From Streptomyces sp. R302 (GTDB lineage: Bacteria; Actinomycetota; Actinomycetes; Streptomycetales; Streptomycetaceae): a DNA stretch of 64,000 bases. The DNA is taken from assembly GCF_012927245.1 (NCBI RefSeq), contig NZ_JABBGE010000015.1, positions 62,001-126,000 of the forward strand, in the 5' to 3' direction. Positions 6,759 through 40,439 of this stretch are shown here, piece after piece (the stretch's first letter is position 1; each line of letters begins with the position of its first letter). The translations under genes and the position numbers were made by a program. The notes beneath the pieces were generated by a model that was not told the DNA's origin, ran no database searches, and was given only the letters and a program-made list of their open reading frames with translations.

Positions 6759-7344
6759 GCGTCGCGCCGGTCTCGACCGCCTCGCGGATCACGCACTTCC
6801 TCACCTTGTCGACGAGGCGGGGCTTCGTCATCTTCACCTCGAAGTCCTTCCGCTGCCCGCCCTCCACCGTCACGACCGTCTTCGCCGTGTCCACGACCCC
6901 GCCGGTGCCGTTCCTGAACTCCAGGGTCACCCGGTAGGTCTCGGTGGTGCTGTACAGCCCTTCGTCGACGATCCGCAGCGTCGCCGTGGTGTCCGCCTTG
7001 CGGGCTGGCTTGCCCTTGCGCTTCTTCTGCTCGGGCTTCACGCAGTCGACGACGCGCACGTCGACTGCGGGGCCGTACGTGGCGGTGGCGGTGGCCGTCG
7101 GCTCGGCGGTGTACTCGCTGCCGCCGCCGGACCCGGAACCGGAGCCGGAGCCCTCGTAGTCGTCGTTGTCCTTCTTGTCGCTGGAGCAGCCGCCCCCGCC
7201 GCCGCTCTTACTGCTCTTGCTCTTGCTCTTGCCGCTGCCGCCCTTGCCGCCGCCGCTGCCGCCGCTACTGCTCGTCTGGAAGCCGGTCAGCGCCAGCACC
7301 ACCACCGTCAGCGTGGCCGCCATCTTCAGCCGGGTCCGTAGCAC
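6724..7344 (-). CDS. Secreted Gly/Ser-rich protein of unknown function
   Basis: About 206 residues. A signal-peptide-like N-terminus (VLRTRLKMAATLTVVVLALTGF) is followed by a long low-complexity Gly/Ser/Lys linker (residues 25-80) containing one Cys, then a C-terminal beta-rich domain with VDCVKPEQKKRK, ATLRIVDEG, YRVTLEFRNGTG and CVIREAV. The last part resembles a secreted Ig-like or CARDB-like fold. I prefer GTG 7344, with GGAG 9 nt upstream; the frame is open to a GTG at 7383. The 3' end overlaps the crotonase gene by 35 bp, tail to tail. The protein family is not recognised. Confidence 0.6.
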   Translation of the reverse strand: MLRTRLKMAATLTVVVLALTGFQTSSSGGSGGGKGGSGKSKSKSSKSGGGGGCSSDKKDNDDYEGSGSGSGSGGGSEYTAEPTATATATYGPAVDVRVVDCVKPEQKKRKGKPARKADTTATLRIVDEGLYSTTETYRVTLEFRNGTGGVVDTAKTVVTVEGGQRKDFEVKMTKPRLVDKVRKCVIREAVETGATPTASGTPSPSS

Positions 7345-7485
7345 CGTCACCGTCTCCCCGTCCGTCGGTCGCCTGCGCGCCACACCCTAGCGGGGGCCGG
7401 GATCCCCGCATGGCGGGCCCTCGGGACCGGGCGTAGCGTCGGGAGCGAGAGAGCCGGACCGCGCAGCCCCCGAGGAGGCCGATCG

Positions 7486-29389: not shown

Positions 29390-30276
29390 TGGAACTGCGC
29401 CTCCTCGCCACCTTCGAGAAGGTCGCGGAAGTCCTCTCCTTCACCCGCGCCGCCGCCGAGCTCGGCTACGCCCAGTCCAGCGTGACCTCGCAGGTCAAGG
29501 CGCTGGAGACGGCCCTCGGCACCGAACTCTTCGAGCGGCTCGGCGGCCGCATCCGGCTGACCGGGGCCGGCGAGCGGCTGCTGCCGTACGCGCGCCGCAT
29601 GGCCGAGCTCGCCGAGGAGGCGCGGGCCGCGGTCGCCGCCGGGGAGGCGGCGGGGACGATCACCATCGGCACCATGGAGTCCCTCACCACGTACCGGCTC
29701 CCGCCGCTCCTGGAGTACGTCCACCACCGGCACCCGGCCGTCCGCCTCTCCCTGCGCCCCACGCTCGGCGACGCGACACGGCGGGCGCTGCGGCAGGGCA
29801 CGTACGACCTGGGCTTCCTCATGGAGGCGGAGACCGCGCACGAGGGCCTGGAGACGGAGGTCCTGGCCCCGGAGCCGCTGACCCTGGTGGCCGCCCCGGG
29901 CCACGCCCTCGCATCCCGTACGGAACTGGCCACGGCGGACCTCGCGGCCACCGCCCTGGTGGGCACCGAGCCGGGCTGCGCGTACCGCGACCTCTTCGAG
30001 GCGGAGCTGGCGGGGGCGGCGACGGGCCCGTCGGGGCCGGAGTTCCTGGAGTTCGGCACGATCGAGGCGAGCAAGCGGGCGGTGGCGTCCGGGCTCGGGA
30101 TCGCCCTGCTGCCCCGGATCACCGTCCAGGAGGAACTGGCGTCCGGGGCGCTGGTGGCGCTCGGCTGGGACCCGCCGTTCACGCTCTTCACGCAGCTCGC
30201 GTGGCGGCGGGGGAAGCGGCTTCCGGCCCACGTGCGACTGTTCGTGGAGCAGGCGCGGCGGCTCGCGCGAGAGTGA
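29389..30276 (+). CDS. LysR-family transcriptional regulator
   Basis: A 295-residue LysR regulator: helix-turn-helix in residues 1-60 (MELRLLATFEKVAEVLSFTR and AELGYAQSSVTSQVKALE), then a periplasmic-binding-like effector domain (GTITIGTMESLTTYRLPPLL). Its last 89 bp overlap the convergent EamA transporter gene, which may be its target although it is not divergent. Co-translation with the upstream PLDc_N gene is likely. The inducer is unknown. Confidence 0.9.
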   Translation: MELRLLATFEKVAEVLSFTRAAAELGYAQSSVTSQVKALETALGTELFERLGGRIRLTGAGERLLPYARRMAELAEEARAAVAAGEAAGTITIGTMESLTTYRLPPLLEYVHHRHPAVRLSLRPTLGDATRRALRQGTYDLGFLMEAETAHEGLETEVLAPEPLTLVAAPGHALASRTELATADLAATALVGTEPGCAYRDLFEAELAGAATGPSGPEFLEFGTIEASKRAVASGLGIALLPRITVQEELASGALVALGWDPPFTLFTQLAWRRGKRLPAHVRLFVEQARRLARE

Positions 30277-31108
30277 CCTTCAGGCTGGCGAGGACGATGA
30301 GCGGGACGCCGAGCGCCTGGACGAGCCCGATGTGGTGCCCGTACACCGCCCAGTCGACGACCATCGCGACGGCCGGGTAGGTGAAGGCGAGCACCGCGAT
30401 CTTCGCGGTGGGCAGCTTGGCGTAGGCGGCGTACATCAGCACGTACATCAGCCCCGTGTGGACGATCCCCAGCCCGACCAGCCACCCCCACCCGCCGCCG
30501 AGCCCGGCGACGGCCCCGAAGTCGGCGAACGGCAGCAGCAGCGGCACGCCGGCCACCACCTGCACGAGGGCGATGAGATGCGGCCGCACGCCGCCGATCC
30601 GCTTGGTGACGAAGGTGGCGAGCGCGTACAGCACGGCGGCGGCGAGCGCGTACCCGAGCCCCTTGAGGGAGGCGGTGTCCCCCGGCCGCACCCCGGAGAC
30701 GAGGATCAGCCCGACGAAGGCGACGGCGAGCCACCCCACCTTCCCGGCGGGAATCCGCTCCCGCAGGAAGAACGAGCTGAGCAGCACGAGGAAGAACGGC
30801 TGCGTGTGGTAGACGACGGTGGCGAGCGAAATGGAAGAGGCGGCATAGGCCTCGAAGAGGAAAACCCAGTTGAAGACGATGAACACCCCGCCGAGCAGCG
30901 CGAGCCCGAAGGACCGCGCGGTGAAGCCGTGCCCGGTGAAGTAGCCCCGCGCCAGGCTGTAGAGCCCGAGCGCGACCGCCCCGAAGAGGCACCGGAAGAA
31001 CACGACCTCGAAGGGCGAGGCGCCCGACTCCACGACGAAGACGCCGAGCGTGCCCGACAGCACCATGGCGAGGGTCAGTTCGAGGGTTCCCCTGGTCTCG
31101 TTTCTCAT
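30188..31108 (-). CDS. EamA/DMT-family transporter
   Basis: A 306-residue protein with ten hydrophobic segments in two EamA repeats (LTLAMVLSGTLGVFVVESGA and GLGYALAAAVLYALATFVTK) and the SSISLATVVYHTQPFF motif. DMT proteins export or import metabolites such as amino acids. It overlaps the LysR gene tail to tail by 89 bp. A 12-bp-stem hairpin lies beyond its start side (31171) and belongs to the next gene. Substrate unknown. Confidence 0.88.
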   Translation of the reverse strand: MRNETRGTLELTLAMVLSGTLGVFVVESGASPFEVVFFRCLFGAVALGLYSLARGYFTGHGFTARSFGLALLGGVFIVFNWVFLFEAYAASSISLATVVYHTQPFFLVLLSSFFLRERIPAGKVGWLAVAFVGLILVSGVRPGDTASLKGLGYALAAAVLYALATFVTKRIGGVRPHLIALVQVVAGVPLLLPFADFGAVAGLGGGWGWLVGLGIVHTGLMYVLMYAAYAKLPTAKIAVLAFTYPAVAMVVDWAVYGHHIGLVQALGVPLIVLASLKVTLARAAAPAPRTVARGPEAASPAATRAA

Positions 31109-31170
31109 ACGACAGACGCTACGGACAGGGTCCGGGAGCGGTCCACGAGCCAGTGGGGCGTCCTTCCGAT

Positions 31171-31199
31171 GGGGCCCATCGGCAGAACCGATGGGCCCC
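31171..31199. terminator. 12-bp perfect hairpin terminator
   Basis: GGGGCCCATCGG and CCGATGGGCCCC pair around CAGAA. It is 41 bp beyond the stop of the exoprotein gene ending at 31240 (minus strand). Confidence 0.85.
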
Positions 31200-31239
31200 G
31201 GCTCAGCGGGGCGCCGGCACCGTCACTTCGCCGCCGCCG

Positions 31240-33593: not shown

Positions 33594-33736
33594 GCCCGAT
33601 CCCCCGTACCTCACGACCGCCCGATCCTAACCAGGGCCGTGCCCGCCCTCGGAGGAGGACCGGGGGAGAACCGGAGGAGGAATAGTTCCAGGTGAGCCCG
33701 AGTTCACGACGACGACCCCACGAGACCGGAGCAGAC

Positions 33737-34360
33737 ATGACCCTCGCCGCCGAACCCGGAGCCGGCCGCTCGTTCCTCTTCGTCCTCGGCAGCTCCCGCG
33801 CCGACGGCAACTCGGAGATCCTGGCCCGCGAAGCCGCCGCCCACCTGCCCGCCGGAATCCCGCAGCGCTGGGTGGACCTGAACCGCCTCGACCTCCCGGA
33901 CTTCCAGGACGGCCGCCACGAGACCACCGCCCACCAGATGGGCGACGTCGAGGCGGACCTCCTGAAGGCCACCCGGGAGGCCACGGACATCGTCATCGTC
34001 TCCCCGCTGTACTGGTACACCCTCTCCGCCCAGACCAAGCGCTACCTGGACTACTGGTCCGGCTGGCTGAACCTCCCGGACTCCGACTTCAAGCAGCGCA
34101 TGGCGGGCGGCACCCTGTGGGGCGTCACGGCCCTGTCCCACGAGCACCACGTCGTCGCGGACGGCCTCACCACCGCCCTCCACAACTCCGCCGCCTACCT
34201 CCGCATGCGCTTCGGCGGCGTCCTCCTGGGCACCGCCTCCCGCCCCGGCCGCATCCGCGCCGACGAACAGGCCCTCATCCGCGCGAAGACCTTCTTCGAG
34301 AACGAGCCCCGCCCGGCCCTGTTCGCGTACGAGGAGGCGAACGCGAACACGACGGCGTGA
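33737..34360 (+). CDS. NADPH-dependent FMN reductase / flavodoxin-fold NAD(P)H oxidoreductase
   Basis: A 207-residue flavodoxin-like protein. The phosphate-binding loop for FMN is VLGSSRADGNSEIL, and IVIVSPLYWYTLSAQTKRYLDYW is the isoalloxazine-side segment typical of NAD(P)H:quinone or FMN reductases. ATG 33737 has GGAG 5 nt upstream. Possible roles are quinone reduction or flavin supply. It stands alone, divergent from the exoprotein pair and convergent with the small protein at 34420. Confidence 0.85.
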   Translation: MTLAAEPGAGRSFLFVLGSSRADGNSEILAREAAAHLPAGIPQRWVDLNRLDLPDFQDGRHETTAHQMGDVEADLLKATREATDIVIVSPLYWYTLSAQTKRYLDYWSGWLNLPDSDFKQRMAGGTLWGVTALSHEHHVVADGLTTALHNSAAYLRMRFGGVLLGTASRPGRIRADEQALIRAKTFFENEPRPALFAYEEANANTTA

Positions 34361-34419
34361 GCAGCCGACCGGAGGACAGCCGGCGGCCGGGGTCTGCTCG
34401 GGCCGGAGGGAGTCGCCGC

Positions 34420-34764
34420 TCATGCCTGGCCGCCGGAATGGCAGGCGCACCCGCACACGAGGTACCTCACCCCCGGCACTCCGCTGTCGCGGCGCGCGTG
34501 GTCGCGGCAGCGGTCGTGGCGGCCGACGATGCAGCGCGGGGAGCGGAACTCCGGCTCCGGTTCCGGCTCCGCGGCCAGGGCGCGGGCCAGGAGGGACACG
34601 CTCACCGCGTCGGCGACCTCCGGCGTCACCCACCAGCCGTCGCCCGCGCGGTCGCGGTGCAGGCCGTCGTGGCCCGCGTCGAGGACGCAGACGGACCCGC
34701 CCCACACGGGCCGGACCACCTCCGCGACGGCGTACACGGACCGCCGCGCCCCGCAGCGGGTCAT
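34420..34764 (-). CDS. Small Cys-containing protein, unknown
   Basis: A 114-residue protein with TRCGARRSVYAVAEVVRP, CVLDAGHDGLHRDRAGDGWW, a Glu-Pro run, and a C-terminal His/Cys-rich part (PRCIVGRHDRCRDHARR, YLVCGCACHSGG) that could bind metal. The His-containing 'DAGHDGLHRD ... W' stretch is seen in small actinobacterial proteins linked to GntR genes (from memory, uncertain). ATG 34764 overlaps the stop of the upstream small gene. The operon is divergent from the GntR-deaminase gene. Confidence 0.6.
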   Translation of the reverse strand: MTRCGARRSVYAVAEVVRPVWGGSVCVLDAGHDGLHRDRAGDGWWVTPEVADAVSVSLLARALAAEPEPEPEFRSPRCIVGRHDRCRDHARRDSGVPGVRYLVCGCACHSGGQA

Positions 34765-34919
34765 CGGGTGGCCCCGGCGTGGATGTTCCGGCGGTCGACG
34801 TCGACGCCGACCGTGGCCAGCCACAACGTCCACCGGCGCCGCCGTTGCGCCGCCGGCGTGAGCGTCCAGAGGAGGAGCGGGAGGAAGGGGATCAGGGTGT
34901 GCGCGATAAGGTTCCGCAC
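34761..34919 (-). CDS. 52-residue single-helix membrane protein, unknown
   Basis: A short protein starting with GTG 34919 (VRNLIAHTLIPFLPLLLWTL), a single hydrophobic helix followed by a basic segment (QRRRRW) and DVDRRNIHAGATR. GGAG lies 8 nt upstream of the start. The stop overlaps the next start (ATGA), so both small genes are coupled. They face the GntR-deaminase gene across a 163-bp AT-rich promoter region and are likely under its control. Confidence 0.6.
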   Translation of the reverse strand: MRNLIAHTLIPFLPLLLWTLTPAAQRRRRWTLWLATVGVDVDRRNIHAGATR

Positions 34920-35003
34920 GTCATCAACTCCGTTGGCAGTTGGTGGCCATGCCCCGGGGCCGGTAGGACGGTCGCCGGGGTCTTGCACGTGCCCACACGA
35001 TAG

Positions 35004-35076
35004 TCCGCGCTACACATTGCTACATAGTGACGTAGCTAGATCCATCCGAACGTGGCTTTGTATGACTATCTAGTGT
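35004..35076. promoter_or_regulatory. AT-rich divergent promoter with short inverted repeats
   Basis: Unusually AT-rich for this sequence. GCTAC-N8-GTAGC lies near 35020-35037, and ACTATCTAGT near 35064-35073 just before the GntR-fusion start. These are candidates for autoregulation by the fused winged helix. Exact boundaries are uncertain. Confidence 0.4.
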
Positions 35077-35082
35077 TGACGT

Positions 35083-35823
35083 ATGAGTCTTGACCCGCAG
35101 TCGGGACGCCCGCTGTACATGCAGCTGGCTGACGTGATCGCAGCGAAGATCGCGGCCGGGGAGTACGCGCCCGACCGTATGGTTCCCGCACCGACTCGCC
35201 TCGCGGAGGAGTACGGCATCGCCGTACTGACCGCCCGTCGTGCCGTGCGTCAGCTCGCCGAGCACGGGCTGGTCTACACCGTGCCCGGTAAGGGCTCCTA
35301 CGTCACGCCCGCCGTCGGGGTGACCGCCACCCCAGGTGATCCGGGCACCGCTCCGGGGAAAGCTCCCCGCATGGACCAGGAGCAGGCGCGCCGGTGGCTC
35401 GTCGCCGCTCTCGACGAGGCGCGGGCCGGGCGGGACGAGGGCGGGGTGCCGATCGGTGCCGCGCTCTACGGGGCCGACGGCGCGCTGCTCGGGCGGGGGC
35501 GGAATCGGCGGGTGCAGGACGGGGATCCTTCCGCGCACGCGGAGACCGCCGCGTTCCGGGACGCCGGGCGGCAGCGCTCGTACCGGGGGACGACGATGGT
35601 GACGACGCTGTCGCCGTGCTGGTACTGCTCCGGGCTCGTGCGGCAGTTCGGGATCTCGCGGGTGGTCGTCGGGGAGGACCGGACCTTCCGCGGCGGGCAG
35701 GAGTGGCTCGCCGCGCACGGGGTCGAGGTCCTCGTGCTCGACGATCCCGAGTGCGTCGAGCTGATGCGCACCTTCGTCGCCGCCCACCCCGCCCTGTGGA
35801 ACGAGGACATCGGTCATGGGTGA
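35083..35823 (+). CDS. GntR winged helix fused to Fcy1-type cytosine deaminase
   Basis: A 246-residue fusion. Residues 1-75 are a GntR-type winged helix (GRPLYMQLADVIAAKIAAGE; TRLAEEYGIAVLTARRAVRQ; GLVYTVPGKGSYV). After a Pro/Gly linker (76-96), residues 97-246 are a zinc-dependent CDA-fold deaminase with HAE (His152, Glu154) and PCxxC (Cys179, Cys182). It closely follows yeast cytosine deaminase Fcy1: EGGVPIGA, LGRGRNRRVQ, TTLSPCWYC, RVVVGEDRTF, LDDPEC and the C-terminal WNEDIG. An in-frame ATG at 35371, 97 codons in, could also give free deaminase. It overlaps the next gene by 8 nt. The substrate could be cytosine or a related base; the fusion suggests a base-sensing repressor. Confidence 0.88.
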   Translation: MSLDPQSGRPLYMQLADVIAAKIAAGEYAPDRMVPAPTRLAEEYGIAVLTARRAVRQLAEHGLVYTVPGKGSYVTPAVGVTATPGDPGTAPGKAPRMDQEQARRWLVAALDEARAGRDEGGVPIGAALYGADGALLGRGRNRRVQDGDPSAHAETAAFRDAGRQRSYRGTTMVTTLSPCWYCSGLVRQFGISRVVVGEDRTFRGGQEWLAAHGVEVLVLDDPECVELMRTFVAAHPALWNEDIGHG

Positions 35824-36724
35824 AGCCCGGCTCCCCACCATCGATCTCGCCCGCGACCCCGGCCCGCAGCTCCCCGCCGTCGACCGGGCGCTGCGCGAGG
35901 CCGGTTTCCTGCTGGTCAGCGGGCATGGGGTCGATCCGGGGATCCGGAACGACATCCGGGAGAGCGCTCGGGCCTTCTTCCACCTCCCCGCCGCCGTCAA
36001 GGAGCCGTACGCCGTGCGGGTCGGGGGGCGGGGGTGGCTCGGGCCGGGGGCGGAGGCGAACGGGTACGCGGAGGGGACCGCGACCCCGCCCGACCTGAAG
36101 GAGTCGCTGTCCTTCGCCGCCGAGGAGCCGACCGGGGATCCCGCCGTGGACGCCGAGTGGTTCCTGCCGAACCTCTGGCCCGCCGAGGTGCCGGAGCTGA
36201 AACCGCTGGTGGAGGCGTATCTCGGGCAGATGAAGGCGCTGTCGGACCGGGTGCTCGACCTGCTCGGGGTGGCGCTCGGCGAGGAGCGGGACTTCTTCAC
36301 GCGGCACACCGGGCACCCCACCTTCGGGTTCAACATCAACTGGTATCCGGGGCAGGAACGGACCGGACCGCCCGAGCCGGGGCAGTTCCGGATCGGGCCG
36401 CACACCGACTTCGGGACCGTGACCGTCCTCGACCGGCAGGCCGGCAAGGGCGGGCTGCAGGTCTTCACCGACGCCGACGGCTGGCAGGACGCGCCGTACG
36501 ACCCCGCCTCCTTCACCGTCAACATCGGGGATCTGATGGCGAGTTGGACGGATGGGCGGTGGCGGTCCGGTCGGCATCGGGTGCTGCCGCCGCCGGGCGA
36601 CGCGCCCGCGGAGGAGCTGATGTCACTGGTGTACTTCTACGAGTGCACCCCCGGCACCACGATCCACGGCATCGAGTCCCACCGGTATCTGCGGGCGCAG
36701 CTCGACGCGATCGCCACGGACTGA
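35816..36724 (+). CDS. Isopenicillin-N-synthase-like Fe(II) oxygenase
   Basis: A 302-residue non-haem iron oxygenase. The N-terminal DIOX_N part (IDLARDPGPQLPAVDRALRE, GFLLVSGHGVDP) precedes the double-stranded beta-helix with the facial triad His196/Asp198 (GPHTDFG) and His254 (SGRHRVLPP). The RxS motif that usually holds 2-oxoglutarate reads LMS (268-270), lacking the Arg. The start codon lies inside the end of the deaminase gene, so the products are probably made together. Thymine 7-hydroxylase, a fungal pyrimidine-salvage enzyme, belongs to the same superfamily, making a nucleobase substrate plausible but unproven. Confidence 0.82.
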   Translation: MGEARLPTIDLARDPGPQLPAVDRALREAGFLLVSGHGVDPGIRNDIRESARAFFHLPAAVKEPYAVRVGGRGWLGPGAEANGYAEGTATPPDLKESLSFAAEEPTGDPAVDAEWFLPNLWPAEVPELKPLVEAYLGQMKALSDRVLDLLGVALGEERDFFTRHTGHPTFGFNINWYPGQERTGPPEPGQFRIGPHTDFGTVTVLDRQAGKGGLQVFTDADGWQDAPYDPASFTVNIGDLMASWTDGRWRSGRHRVLPPPGDAPAEELMSLVYFYECTPGTTIHGIESHRYLRAQLDAIATD

Positions 36725-36829
36725 CGACACTTCAGCAACAGTCCCGAAAAGGCTTTCCGGCCCTCTCCTGTTCCCAACACGCCGTCGTTATCCTGGAGTT
36801 CACGGAGTTCACTGCGACGGGGGTGGCGG

Positions 36830-38890
36830 GTGGACAGAGAGCTGTACGGCCGCGAGGCGGTCCTGGATCCTCGCGGACTGGCGGCGCGGCTCATCGGGCT
36901 CGGGCCGTACGGCCAGGGGCGGGTGCCCTTCGAGCACGGCGACGATCCGCCGGTCACGGTCTTCACCGGCGGGCGCGGCATGGGCAAGACCGTGCTGCTC
37001 AAGGAGGTCCGCAACCGCTACCGCGACTTCACCCCGCTCGCCCTGCTCGACTGCGCCCGGATCGAGGAGCCGGCCGATCACGGGGCCGGCTGGTCCCCGG
37101 TCACCGGCGCGCTCGCGGAGCTGTCCGTGCAGCTCGGGCGGAAGACCGACGCCGTCAGAGCCGTACCGTTTCCGCGGCTTGCGCTCGGGCTCGTCGCCGT
37201 CACCTCGGTGGGCTGGACCCGGGAGGACGACGAGCGGGCCCGCCGCGACCTGTTACGCCTCGGGCCGCTGCTCGCCACCGTCGACGCCGGGCGCGCGGCC
37301 GCCGCCGCCTGGGTCGGCCGGGTGCTCGCCAAGCTCGCCGGCACCGCCGCCGAGGCCGGCGCCCCCTTCGCCGGGCTCGTCGCCGAGGCCACCGTCGAGA
37401 CGGTCGTCGAGGAGTTCTTCAGCCGCTTCAAGAAGGCGCCCGAGGAGTGGTTCGGCGGCTACCGCAACGCCGGCGGGCGCGGGCGCGCCGGACTCCAGCA
37501 GCTCGCCGTCGACTTCGCGCAGGGCGGGCCGCGCCGCGAGGAGGCCGAGGCCTTCCTCGTCCTCACCCTCACCGAGGACCTGCTCCGCGCCTACACCGGG
37601 CTGCGCCGCGGCAGCCGCGTCGGCAGGCCCCTGATCCTCCTCGACAACGCCCAGGAGGCCGTGGGCCGCGCCCTGGTCGAACCGATTCTGCGGGCCCGCT
37701 CGGACGGCCGCCGCGACCACACCGTCGTCCTCGCCGCCTCCCGGCTGCGCGAGCACGAGGTACTGCGCCACGCCACCCGCACCCGGCTGCCCGAGACCGC
37801 CCACCAGGCGCCCTGCCCGCGCACCGGCCGCGTCGGCTCCGGCCTCCTCGCCGTCGAGCTGACCCCGCTCACCCCCACCCAGACCCGCGCCGCCTTCGAC
37901 CGCCACGACCCGGCCGGCAGCGCCCCCGCCACCCTCTCCCGGGCCGTCCACCGGCTCACCGGCGGCCGGCCGCTCGGCGTCGACCTGCTCGCCCGCGCCG
38001 CCGGCGAGACCCCGCCCGCCGCCCGCCGCGCCCTCACCCCGGCCCGGCTCCTCGACCTCACCGTGGAGCTCCGCGAGGACTCCGCGCCGGTGCCCGTCGC
38101 CGCCGCCCTCCTCGCCGCCCTGCTGCCGGTGCCCAGACCGGGGCCGTACGCGGTCCTCGCCGCCGCCCACGACGAGGACTCGGCCCGCCGCCTCGCCCAG
38201 GCCCGGCTCGCCGCCGAGTCCCTCGACGGCGACGTCGCCCTCCGCGTCCGCGACCGGCTCCGCGCCGAGCACTGGACCGACCACCCCGGCCACTTCGTCG
38301 GCGACCCGCTGCTGCGCTCCCTGCTCCTGCACCGGCTCCGCTTCGAGGACGCCGACCCCCCGCAGTACTCCGCCTGGCGGGCCGTCCACGAGACCCTCCG
38401 CCGCCACTACGGGCCCCAGCCGGGCCCGCACCGGCTCCACCACGACCTGGCGCTCGGCGACACCGCCGAGGCCGTCGCCCACCTCCGGCTCACCTTCCCG
38501 GGACCCGACGTCCTCGGCTGGCTCGGCGTGCTCCGGTTCGTCGCCGCCGCCCCCTACCCGCGCGAGCGGGGCCGCACCGGGCCCGACCCGCGGCGGGCCG
38601 TCGCCCTCGGCCAGGAGCCCGACCCGGCGCTGCCCGACGGCCTCGGCCCCGACGCCGCCGAACTGCACCTCTCCGTACGGCGGCTGCTGCACGCCGTATG
38701 GCTGCTCACCGATCCGCTCGCGCTGCCCGACGAGGAGGTCGCCCACCGGCTCGCGTACGAGCTGCGCCGGCTCTCCGGCCGTCACCTCACCGGCAGCGGT
38801 CCACTGTGGGACGCGGCCGGGCACTGGCCGCGGGACATCCGCGCCTGGCGGGAGCTGTCGCTGCCGCCGGGGCGCGAGGACGGAGTCTGA
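36830..38890 (+). CDS. P-loop NTPase paired with a receptor-like protein
   Basis: A 686-residue soluble protein. An AAA/STAND-like ATPase core has Walker A GGRGMGKT (residues 47-54), a Walker-B-like LILLDNAQEA near 268, and a sensor-like VVLAASRLRE. A helical region (MTAAH-like AAAWVGRVLAKLAGTAAEAG) is inserted between them, and a long winged/helical C-terminal half follows (GGRPLGVDLLARA; LDLTVELRED; LRRLSGRHLTGSGPLWDAAG). The GTG start follows a GGGGG stretch. The receptor-like gene begins 4 bp after its stop. The protein has no known name; a signal-transducing ATPase is inferred from STAND-type architecture. Confidence 0.75.
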   Translation: MDRELYGREAVLDPRGLAARLIGLGPYGQGRVPFEHGDDPPVTVFTGGRGMGKTVLLKEVRNRYRDFTPLALLDCARIEEPADHGAGWSPVTGALAELSVQLGRKTDAVRAVPFPRLALGLVAVTSVGWTREDDERARRDLLRLGPLLATVDAGRAAAAAWVGRVLAKLAGTAAEAGAPFAGLVAEATVETVVEEFFSRFKKAPEEWFGGYRNAGGRGRAGLQQLAVDFAQGGPRREEAEAFLVLTLTEDLLRAYTGLRRGSRVGRPLILLDNAQEAVGRALVEPILRARSDGRRDHTVVLAASRLREHEVLRHATRTRLPETAHQAPCPRTGRVGSGLLAVELTPLTPTQTRAAFDRHDPAGSAPATLSRAVHRLTGGRPLGVDLLARAAGETPPAARRALTPARLLDLTVELREDSAPVPVAAALLAALLPVPRPGPYAVLAAAHDEDSARRLAQARLAAESLDGDVALRVRDRLRAEHWTDHPGHFVGDPLLRSLLLHRLRFEDADPPQYSAWRAVHETLRRHYGPQPGPHRLHHDLALGDTAEAVAHLRLTFPGPDVLGWLGVLRFVAAAPYPRERGRTGPDPRRAVALGQEPDPALPDGLGPDAAELHLSVRRLLHAVWLLTDPLALPDEEVAHRLAYELRRLSGRHLTGSGPLWDAAGHWPRDIRAWRELSLPPGREDGV

Positions 38891-38894
38891 CGCG

Positions 38895-40427
38895 ATGTTC
38901 GACCGGCTGCGCCGCCGCTTCTTCTGGACGCCCCGGCAGAAGCTCCTCACCGTGCTCCTCGCGACCGCCCTCGTCGCCGGCCTCGGCGGCTGGGGCCTGG
39001 TGAGGCTCCTCCAACCGGAGGACCGTTCCTGCGCCGCGGGCGTGGAACGGCCCGCCGACAGCGCGGAGTGCGTCGGCGTCAACGGGGACGGCCACGCCTT
39101 CGGCGTCCCCGCCCTCGCCGCCATCACCGGCGCCATCGGGCGCGAGAACGCCACCCTCAAGGCCGGCGAGTACGCCACCGTCGCCGTCCTGCTCCCGATC
39201 ACCGCCACCGACCCCGGCACCCAGGAGAAGATCCTCCGCGAACTCCAGGGCGCGTACGCCTATCAGTACCGGGCCAACCACGAGTCCAACAGCGAGACCC
39301 CGAAGATCCGGCTCGTCCTCGCCAACACCGGCAACAAGAACGCCCACTGGCGCACGGTCGTCGACCGGCTCACCGCCATGACCGGCGCCCCCGACCGGCT
39401 CCGCGCCGTCTCCGGCGTCGCCACCTCCTCCGCCGAGGTACGGGAGGCGGTCACCACCCTCACCGGCGCGGGGATCGCCGTCGTCGGCACCACCATCACC
39501 GCCGACGACCTCGCCAACGGCCCCGGCCGCGACCGCTTCCCCGGCCTCGCCCGGGTCTCCCCCACCAACAGCGACGAGGCCCGGGCCCTCGCCGACTTCG
39601 GCCGGGTCGACGCGGCCCGCGCGATCCTCGTCCAGGACTCCCGCACCGGCGACCACTACGTCGACACCCTGCGGACCGCCTTCGCCGAGTCCCTCAAGGG
39701 CGCCCCCTACGAGCCGCAGCTCTACACCTCGCCGAAGGACAACACCGAGGAGGGCACCACCGCCAACACCTTCCGCCAGATCACCCACCTGATCTGCGAC
39801 ACCCGCGCCGAGACCGTCTTCTTCGCCGGCCGCCACACCCAGCTGCGCCAGTTCATCAACGCGCTCGGCTCCCGCGGCTGCGCCGACCGCGCCTTCACCG
39901 TCCTGACCGGCGACGAGGGCTCGTACCTCGGCGCCGACAAGAAGCTGAACCGCGCCGCCCTCGGCAAGAAGCTGACCGTCCGGTACGCGGCGCTCGCCCA
40001 CCCCGATGCCTGGAAGCCCGCACCGGGGCGGCCGGTGCCGACGACCGGCGGCTCGGTCGTCGCCTTCGACACCTTCCTCACCGACATCGCCCGCGCCGAC
40101 CCCAAGCCGATACCGCTCCGCGACGGGCAGGCGATCATCGCGTACGACGCGATGGCGACGGCCGTCCACGCCATCCGCCAGGCCACCCCGGCGAACGCCC
40201 CCTACCCGGAGCTCGCCGACGTCGGCACCCAGTGGCCGCAGGTCAAGGGCTCGCTGCGGGTCCAGGGCGCGAGCGGCTGGATCTGCCTCGACAACCACGG
40301 CAACCCGTACAACAAGGCCGTCCCCATCGTGGAGCTCGCCGCCGACGGCACCCAGCGCTTCGTCCAGACCGCCTGGCCGGAGGGCGAACCCCCGACGACG
40401 AGCTGCCTGCCGCCGAAGAAGGGGTGA
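38895..40427 (+). CDS. Membrane-tethered type-I periplasmic-binding-fold protein
   Basis: A 510-residue protein with a basic N-terminus (FDRLRRRFFWTPRQK), one transmembrane helix near residues 18-36 (LTVLLATALVAGLGGWGLV), and a large extracytoplasmic domain resembling LivJ/ANP-receptor type-I binding proteins: VAVLLPITATDPGTQEKIL, IRLVLANTGNKN, VSGVATSSAEVREAV, VVGTTITADDL, LARVSPTNSDEA, TVFFAGRHTQLRQF and GQAIIAYDAMATAVHAI. There are Cys at SCAAG, ECVG, ICDTR, GCADR, ICLD and SCLPP. No permease or ABC ATPase gene adjoins it. It probably senses an external ligand and signals through the upstream NTPase (inference). Confidence 0.78.
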   Translation: MFDRLRRRFFWTPRQKLLTVLLATALVAGLGGWGLVRLLQPEDRSCAAGVERPADSAECVGVNGDGHAFGVPALAAITGAIGRENATLKAGEYATVAVLLPITATDPGTQEKILRELQGAYAYQYRANHESNSETPKIRLVLANTGNKNAHWRTVVDRLTAMTGAPDRLRAVSGVATSSAEVREAVTTLTGAGIAVVGTTITADDLANGPGRDRFPGLARVSPTNSDEARALADFGRVDAARAILVQDSRTGDHYVDTLRTAFAESLKGAPYEPQLYTSPKDNTEEGTTANTFRQITHLICDTRAETVFFAGRHTQLRQFINALGSRGCADRAFTVLTGDEGSYLGADKKLNRAALGKKLTVRYAALAHPDAWKPAPGRPVPTTGGSVVAFDTFLTDIARADPKPIPLRDGQAIIAYDAMATAVHAIRQATPANAPYPELADVGTQWPQVKGSLRVQGASGWICLDNHGNPYNKAVPIVELAADGTQRFVQTAWPEGEPPTTSCLPPKKG

Positions 40428-40439
40428 GTCCCGCGGTCC

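Follow-up and report, generated by a model that had tools for sequence, protein, structure and literature searches.

A rare in-frame fusion of a GntR winged helix and a yeast-type cytosine deaminase in Streptomyces, possibly a repressor of its own operon

The window, which is the whole 64,000-nucleotide stretch of Streptomyces sp. R302 analysed here, is high-GC DNA and carries on its forward strand a single open frame (35083..35823, 246 codons and a stop) encoding a 246-aa protein in which a GntR winged helix is joined to a yeast-type cytosine deaminase. The winged-helix domain occupies residues 1-76 (35083..35310, forward strand) and matches the Pfam family PF00392 at residues 11-74 (8.9e-12, 44.9 bits, above the curated cut-off of 27). 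The deaminase domain occupies residues 97-246 (35371..35820, forward strand), and residues 100-197 match dCMP_cyt_deam_1 (PF00383) at 9.6e-19, again above the curated cut-off. Residues 77-96 (35311..35370, forward strand) form the linker, which is disordered in the AlphaFold model and also contains the junction of the mosaic described below. The model, built from 21 rows, has a mean pLDDT of 87.4 with two confident domains, and its only longer low stretch is residues 78-93, where pLDDT falls below 50. Yeast cytosine deaminase was the top PDB match by sequence (1.1e-32, aligned up to the common C-terminal W..EDIG), was matched at 4.7e-51 by profile, and also came out closest in Foldseek, where the structures aligned with about 40% identical residues and a TM of 0.90 by target length. 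The whole-domain similarity is accompanied by both zinc motifs, H-A/G-E (HAE, residues 152-154) and PCxxC (PCWYC, residues 178-182), with His152, Glu154, Cys179 and Cys182 all present. Asn141, Phe202, Trp239 and Asp242 are present too, and we take them to be the equivalents of residues lining the active site of the yeast enzyme. The protein differs from yeast Fcy1 in that it is bacterial and bears an N-terminal DNA-binding domain. Identity as a TadA tRNA deaminase was rejected, the NCBIfam model PRK10860 scoring 58.1 bits against a cut-off of 150. The original prediction of a GntR domain fused to an Fcy1-type deaminase with intact HAE and PCxxC motifs was therefore confirmed on both counts, by one frame with two Pfam domains above cut-off that recurs in three further species, and by the PDB match and motifs.

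The stop of the fusion gene is overlapped by 8 bases, ATGGGTGA, by the start of a gene for a 302-aa isopenicillin-N-synthase-like non-haem Fe oxygenase (35816..36724, forward strand, 302 codons and a stop), in which Pfam DIOX_N (PF14226) and 2OG-FeII_Oxy (PF03171) were found; the coupling of such an oxygenase to the fusion had been predicted and holds in the window. The best profile matches in the PDB were to an enzyme of the ethylene-forming type (3.7e-53), to an IPNS-like protein of Pseudomonas and to thymine 7-hydroxylase (2.2e-41). The HxD...H iron triad (H196, D198, H254) is invariant in 12 aligned rows. According to an excerpt of PMC4787775, Arg190 and Arg286 of the fungal thymine 7-hydroxylase bind 2-oxoglutarate. 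The oxygenase shares with that enzyme the fold, the Fe triad and the equivalents of Tyr194, Ser288 and Phe292, but Arg190 and Arg286 are replaced by Asn173 and Leu268, neither of which varies among the 12 rows, and Tyr217 and Asn294 by Phe199 and Glu276. These equivalences were taken from the sequence alignment and not from the AlphaFold model, which for the oxygenase reaches only fair confidence (pLDDT 70.5). The oxygenase may thus bind 2-oxoglutarate differently or may not use it.

Of 53 loci from the two initial searches, 31 have an oxygenase gene no more than 1.5 kb from the deaminase, with one further locus (L030) lacking a strong deaminase, and none was found in the stretches examined around the other three fusions. 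An oxygenase match at 1e-60 was obtained in 164 of the 392 genus genomes, and the genomes of two of these fusions (G292 and G346, the latter 78% complete) gave none. Going by this distribution, the oxygenase is a partner of the deaminase and not of the fusion, since it is absent beside the other three fusions. The earlier link to thymine 7-hydroxylase therefore stands for the fold and the iron triad, whereas a thymine-7-hydroxylase pathway is now rated lower because both 2-oxoglutarate arginines are missing and the other fusions have no oxygenase next to them; that the enzyme hydroxylates nucleobases is a guess. In two fused loci, those of S. narbonensis (L085:6823-7290) and of genome G292 (L149, reverse complement, 6906-7373), the place of the oxygenase after the fusion is occupied by a gene that we take to be truncated-haemoglobin-like.

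Upstream of the fusion are a gene for an NADPH-dependent FMN reductase (33692-34360, forward strand), assigned by its Pfam family and with a relative in 7 of 15 stretches compared, and, divergent from the GntR gene, a 137-aa ORF with no Pfam match (34420-34833, reverse strand). Downstream lies a gene for a protein of 686 aa whose AAA match stays below threshold (36830-38890, forward strand). Both the 137-aa ORF and the 686-aa gene have relatives at 15 of 15 loci compared, so by gene content this is one chromosomal locus whose content changes. A weaker relative of the ORF is divergent to a type-A GntR gene without deaminase in L091, L092 and L093. One possibility is that the GntR regulator has an older target in this ORF.

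The in-frame fusion was found at the same locus in three other Streptomyces species, with 80-83% protein identity, as the original prediction had suggested looking for. Among 392 genomes of the genus, 205 matched the fusion protein at 1e-20, some of them (e.g. G238 and G415) seemingly by the GntR part only, and the whole length in one frame was matched in the window, G346 and G292. A scan with the GntR part gave 62 loci, and a deaminase adjoined it in 8 of them within the stretches examined: two fused (L085, S. narbonensis; L089, Streptomyces sp. Root431, which is genome G346) and six with separate genes (L086, L087, L088, L090, L094, L095). The added loci comprised one more fusion, L149 of genome G292, and two separate pairs, L147 (G294) and L151 (G025). 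In total, the window included, four species have the fusion and eight have the same GntR (type A) beside the deaminase as two genes. Other relatives carry a second GntR type, about 50% identical, also as a gene separate from the deaminase. A GntR profile, built from loci of this analysis, detected no in-frame GntR outside the four fused species among 86 deaminase loci (duplicates included), 47 of which have at least 40 open in-frame codons upstream. A class-level search of 345 genomes gave 57 matches at 1e-22, and only the window's own match spanned both domains; a plasmid search gave three matching records, none over 80% of the query; and the genomes around G292 or G346, whose genus part overlapped the 392-genome search almost wholly, yielded no further fusion. 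Searches with the fusion protein could miss a strongly diverged GntR joined to a deaminase, and the profile test covered the 86 deaminase loci. On this comparison of loci the fusion is a rare, derived and local state and not the basic design of the operon, because in eight species the orthologous GntR and the deaminase are still two genes and none of the other deaminase loci tested is fused. Separate genes in close relatives were what the original prediction had named as evidence against itself, and most relatives have them, so the prediction is not supported in the form in which it was put.

The junction itself retains traces of a free deaminase gene. In the separate loci GntR has its own stop and the deaminase is preceded by a ribosome-binding element, which is GGGGAA in 9 of 11 unfused loci and is often placed inside a small hairpin, as in GCGGGGAAGAGTCCCCGCATGG. 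In the window the GntR stop was lost through a frame change while GGGGAAAGCTCCCCGCATGG was kept, and what appears to be a remnant start is retained at 35354..35373 (forward strand), where a hairpin CGGGGA-AAGC-TCCCCG (35354-35369) holds the element GGGGAAAG, followed by an ATG at 35371-35373 (element and ATG together, 35355-35373). The hairpin encloses the element much as in many unfused loci, and translational control is possible. The GGGGAA element has gone in L085, L089 and L149, and L149 has also lost the deaminase ATG, with a GTG codon in its place. The distance between the start of GntR and the first deaminase codon in the alignment is 294, 279, 273 and 261 bases (98, 93, 91 and 87 codons) in the four fused loci, and in the separate loci 313, 301, 301, 319, 297, 297, 319 and 323 bases; the two at 297 bases share the fused frame, but a stop intervenes. 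Because the old ribosome-binding element and the ATG remain, the window may make both the fusion and a free deaminase. By the Nei-Gojobori method both halves of the fused set are under purifying selection, with a mean dN/dS of 0.216 for GntR and 0.224 for the deaminase (6 pairs), and constraint is slightly stronger in the separate genes (0.168 and 0.166, 28 pairs); the pairs are not independent.

The copy in the window is a mosaic. Its regulator and promoter match those of the fused S. narbonensis locus, and its deaminase, oxygenase and flanks match L155, a relative whose GntR is a different one and is not fused. Segments 30000-31201, 33715-34339, 34414-34984 and 35126-40435 aligned to L155 at 88%, 88%, 81% and 89%, respectively, and in 40-base blocks the region of about 35001-35320 was 38-70% identical to L155 and 80-95% identical to L085. 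The window was joined with L155 in the deaminase tree (support 100/100) and with L085 in the GntR tree (82/84). From these blocks and groupings we infer that a segment comprising regulator and promoter was exchanged in the lineage of the window, with one breakpoint within the linker, where donor identity switches. As for a single origin of the fusion, the four fused rows group in the GntR tree with weak support (70/80), and in the concatenated tree one clade is not rejected (p-AU 0.49), the best form needing two changes. The deaminase tree rejects one fused clade (p 0.0001), as is expected if the deaminase of the window was exchanged. A short block at 34921-34985, around CGCCGGGGTCTT, also stands ahead of many GntR relatives elsewhere, and may be a homology arm for regulator exchange.

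The region ahead of the fusion gene (35009..35082, forward strand) holds a candidate operator and the conserved GTATGACTATCTA. The candidate operator has arms GCTAC...GTAGC at 35009-35036, and its centre is some 60 bp ahead of the ATG. Eleven of 12 type-A loci share GTRTGACTATCTA in front of the GntR gene, L151 being different. In 9 of 11 loci tested, a dyad with 10-14 of its 14 positions paired is centred 60-66 bp before the GntR start, and in L088 it is a perfect 28-bp dyad. Against shuffled sequences it reached p 0.005-0.025 in six loci (L149, L086, L088, L090, L094, L147) and p 0.06-0.10 in three (L089, L087, L095). L085 showed no significant dyad (9 pairs, centre -55, p 0.28), nor did the window anywhere in the region (best 8 of 14 pairs, centre -90, shuffle p 0.82), where the outer arms GCTAC and GTAGC are kept in their usual position. 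Among 18 further GntR relatives, L091-L093 gave 11-12 pairs at -65 and most others were not significant. The candidate-operator pattern occurs once in its own 7.9-Mb genome when up to three mismatches are allowed. According to an excerpt of PMC4494728, GntR regulators usually bind palindromes, and those bound by the YtrA type are long. The dyads in relatives, the single genomic occurrence and this habit of GntR operators make an autoregulatory operator likely in the family, probably a weaker one in the window.

We propose the following course of events, whose order we infer. The ancestral locus would have had a small effector-less GntR repressor gene just ahead of an Fcy1-type deaminase gene, often with an oxygenase behind it. 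In a few species the intervening stop would have been lost and the frames joined, and in the lineage of the window the regulator-plus-promoter segment would also have been swapped by recombination with a breakpoint in the linker. The product would be a two-domain protein of winged helix, flexible linker and deaminase. Yeast cytosine deaminase is a dimer, and a deaminase dimer of this kind would hold two winged helices on the dyad region about 60 bp upstream. The fusion would then repress its own operon while remaining an active-type cytosine deaminase, and in the window free deaminase may be made as well from the retained start. We put the chance that the fusion is an autoregulatory repressor of its own operon, with the deaminase as its second domain, at about even. 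It is favoured by the four species with the frame, three of which no longer have the old start element, the constraint on both halves, the catalytic residues, intact in all four fused species, the two confident domains of the model, the upstream dyads in nine of eleven loci, the single genomic occurrence of the site pattern and the mosaic structure; the degenerate dyad and retained free-deaminase start of the window, the GTG at the former ATG of L149, a predicted 16S-tail pairing that sets apart only L085, the small number of species and the slightly lower constraint than in separate genes speak against it. A further step, in which the base in the active site sets DNA binding and the promoter thereby learns from the enzyme how much substrate there is, is speculative and we consider it rather unlikely.

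The strongest alternative, possible although somewhat improbable in our estimate, is that recombination joined the frames without regulatory meaning, that free deaminase started at 35371 is the main product, and that the GntR half acts as before. It is consistent with the retained GGGGAAAG and ATG, with the derivation of the deaminase side of the window from the unfused relative L155, and with the predicted 16S-tail pairing before the deaminase start, which at -5.7 kcal/mol in the window, -5.0 in L089 and -4.6 in L149 lies within the range of 11 unfused loci (-4.0 to -8.4 kcal/mol). This measure therefore sets apart only L085, whose pairing is merely -2.5 kcal/mol. On the other hand, three relatives hold the frame despite deletion of GGGGAA, one of them without the ATG as well, and the fused loci, at 98, 93, 91 and 87 codons, differ in length only by multiples of three. 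A constitutive tether, by which the fusion only keeps repressor and deaminase at a set ratio and supplies a dimerisation module with no ligand effect, fits the flexible linker and the unfused type-A GntR proteins, which are 83-87 aa long without a C-terminal effector domain, but we hold it to be quite unlikely. An error of sequencing or assembly that joined two genes might be suspected from the eight species with the same GntR as two genes, and is very improbable, because the in-frame fusion recurs at this locus in three further species, in assemblies with different linkers. A natural DNA-targeted base editor, with the winged helix bringing the deaminase to DNA cytosines, has in its favour a fold common to TadA and is hardly credible for a protein whose nearest match, up to the C-terminal W..EDIG, is the yeast cytosine deaminase, which acts on free bases, and which scores far below the TadA cut-off.

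To our knowledge, the only GntR regulators fused to an enzyme fold are those of the MocR group. Excerpts of PMC6677901 and PMC4944035 describe MocR, GabR and PdxR as a GntR winged helix with an aminotransferase-like domain, and the likeness to these, as far as the excerpts go, is a GntR helix joined C-terminally through a linker to a whole enzyme fold. The enzyme part of MocR is a fold-type-I PLP enzyme, whereas that of the fusion is a zinc cytosine deaminase; the fusion is also seen in four Streptomyces species only, with separate genes in close relatives. MocR-type NCBIfam models matched the fusion at the N-terminus only and far below cut-off. The fusion is not a MocR because the enzyme part differs, the C-terminal domain being a PF00383 deaminase and not of the fold-type-I aminotransferase-like kind; by analogy it may work like one. 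YtrA-type regulators, in the excerpt of PMC4494728, resemble the unfused GntR in being short, without a large effector domain, and in a suspected long palindrome. Their C-terminal part consists of two helices of about 50 aa, whereas the fusion has the deaminase there and the unfused type-A GntR, at 83-87 aa, ends at most 13 residues past the end of the winged-helix match (74). Membership of the YtrA subfamily was rejected, as the short two-helix part is missing in the fusion and in its unfused orthologues, and no ABC-transporter operon, as found with YtrA-type regulators, was seen among the neighbours searched with Pfam. The original prediction had known of no described system of this form, and among the titles and opening lines of abstracts in the open-access literature, which was the scope of the search, we found no description of a GntR-cytosine deaminase fusion or the like; the terms GntR and cytosine deaminase occur together in PMC3359211 and PMC2529317.

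The related species show the steps of the change: separate genes, a fusion with the old start kept and a fusion with the old start erased. Since one locus is available in unfused, half-fused and fully fused form, the evolution from enzyme to effector domain can be tested step by step, and the fusion, rare and recent-looking, is well placed for studying how enzyme-based regulators arise. If the deaminase does act as the sensor, the protein would represent a new class of transcription factor in which a GntR helix is combined with a working cytosine deaminase, and it would connect the supply of pyrimidine bases to an operon of Streptomyces that includes an uncharacterised Fe oxygenase.
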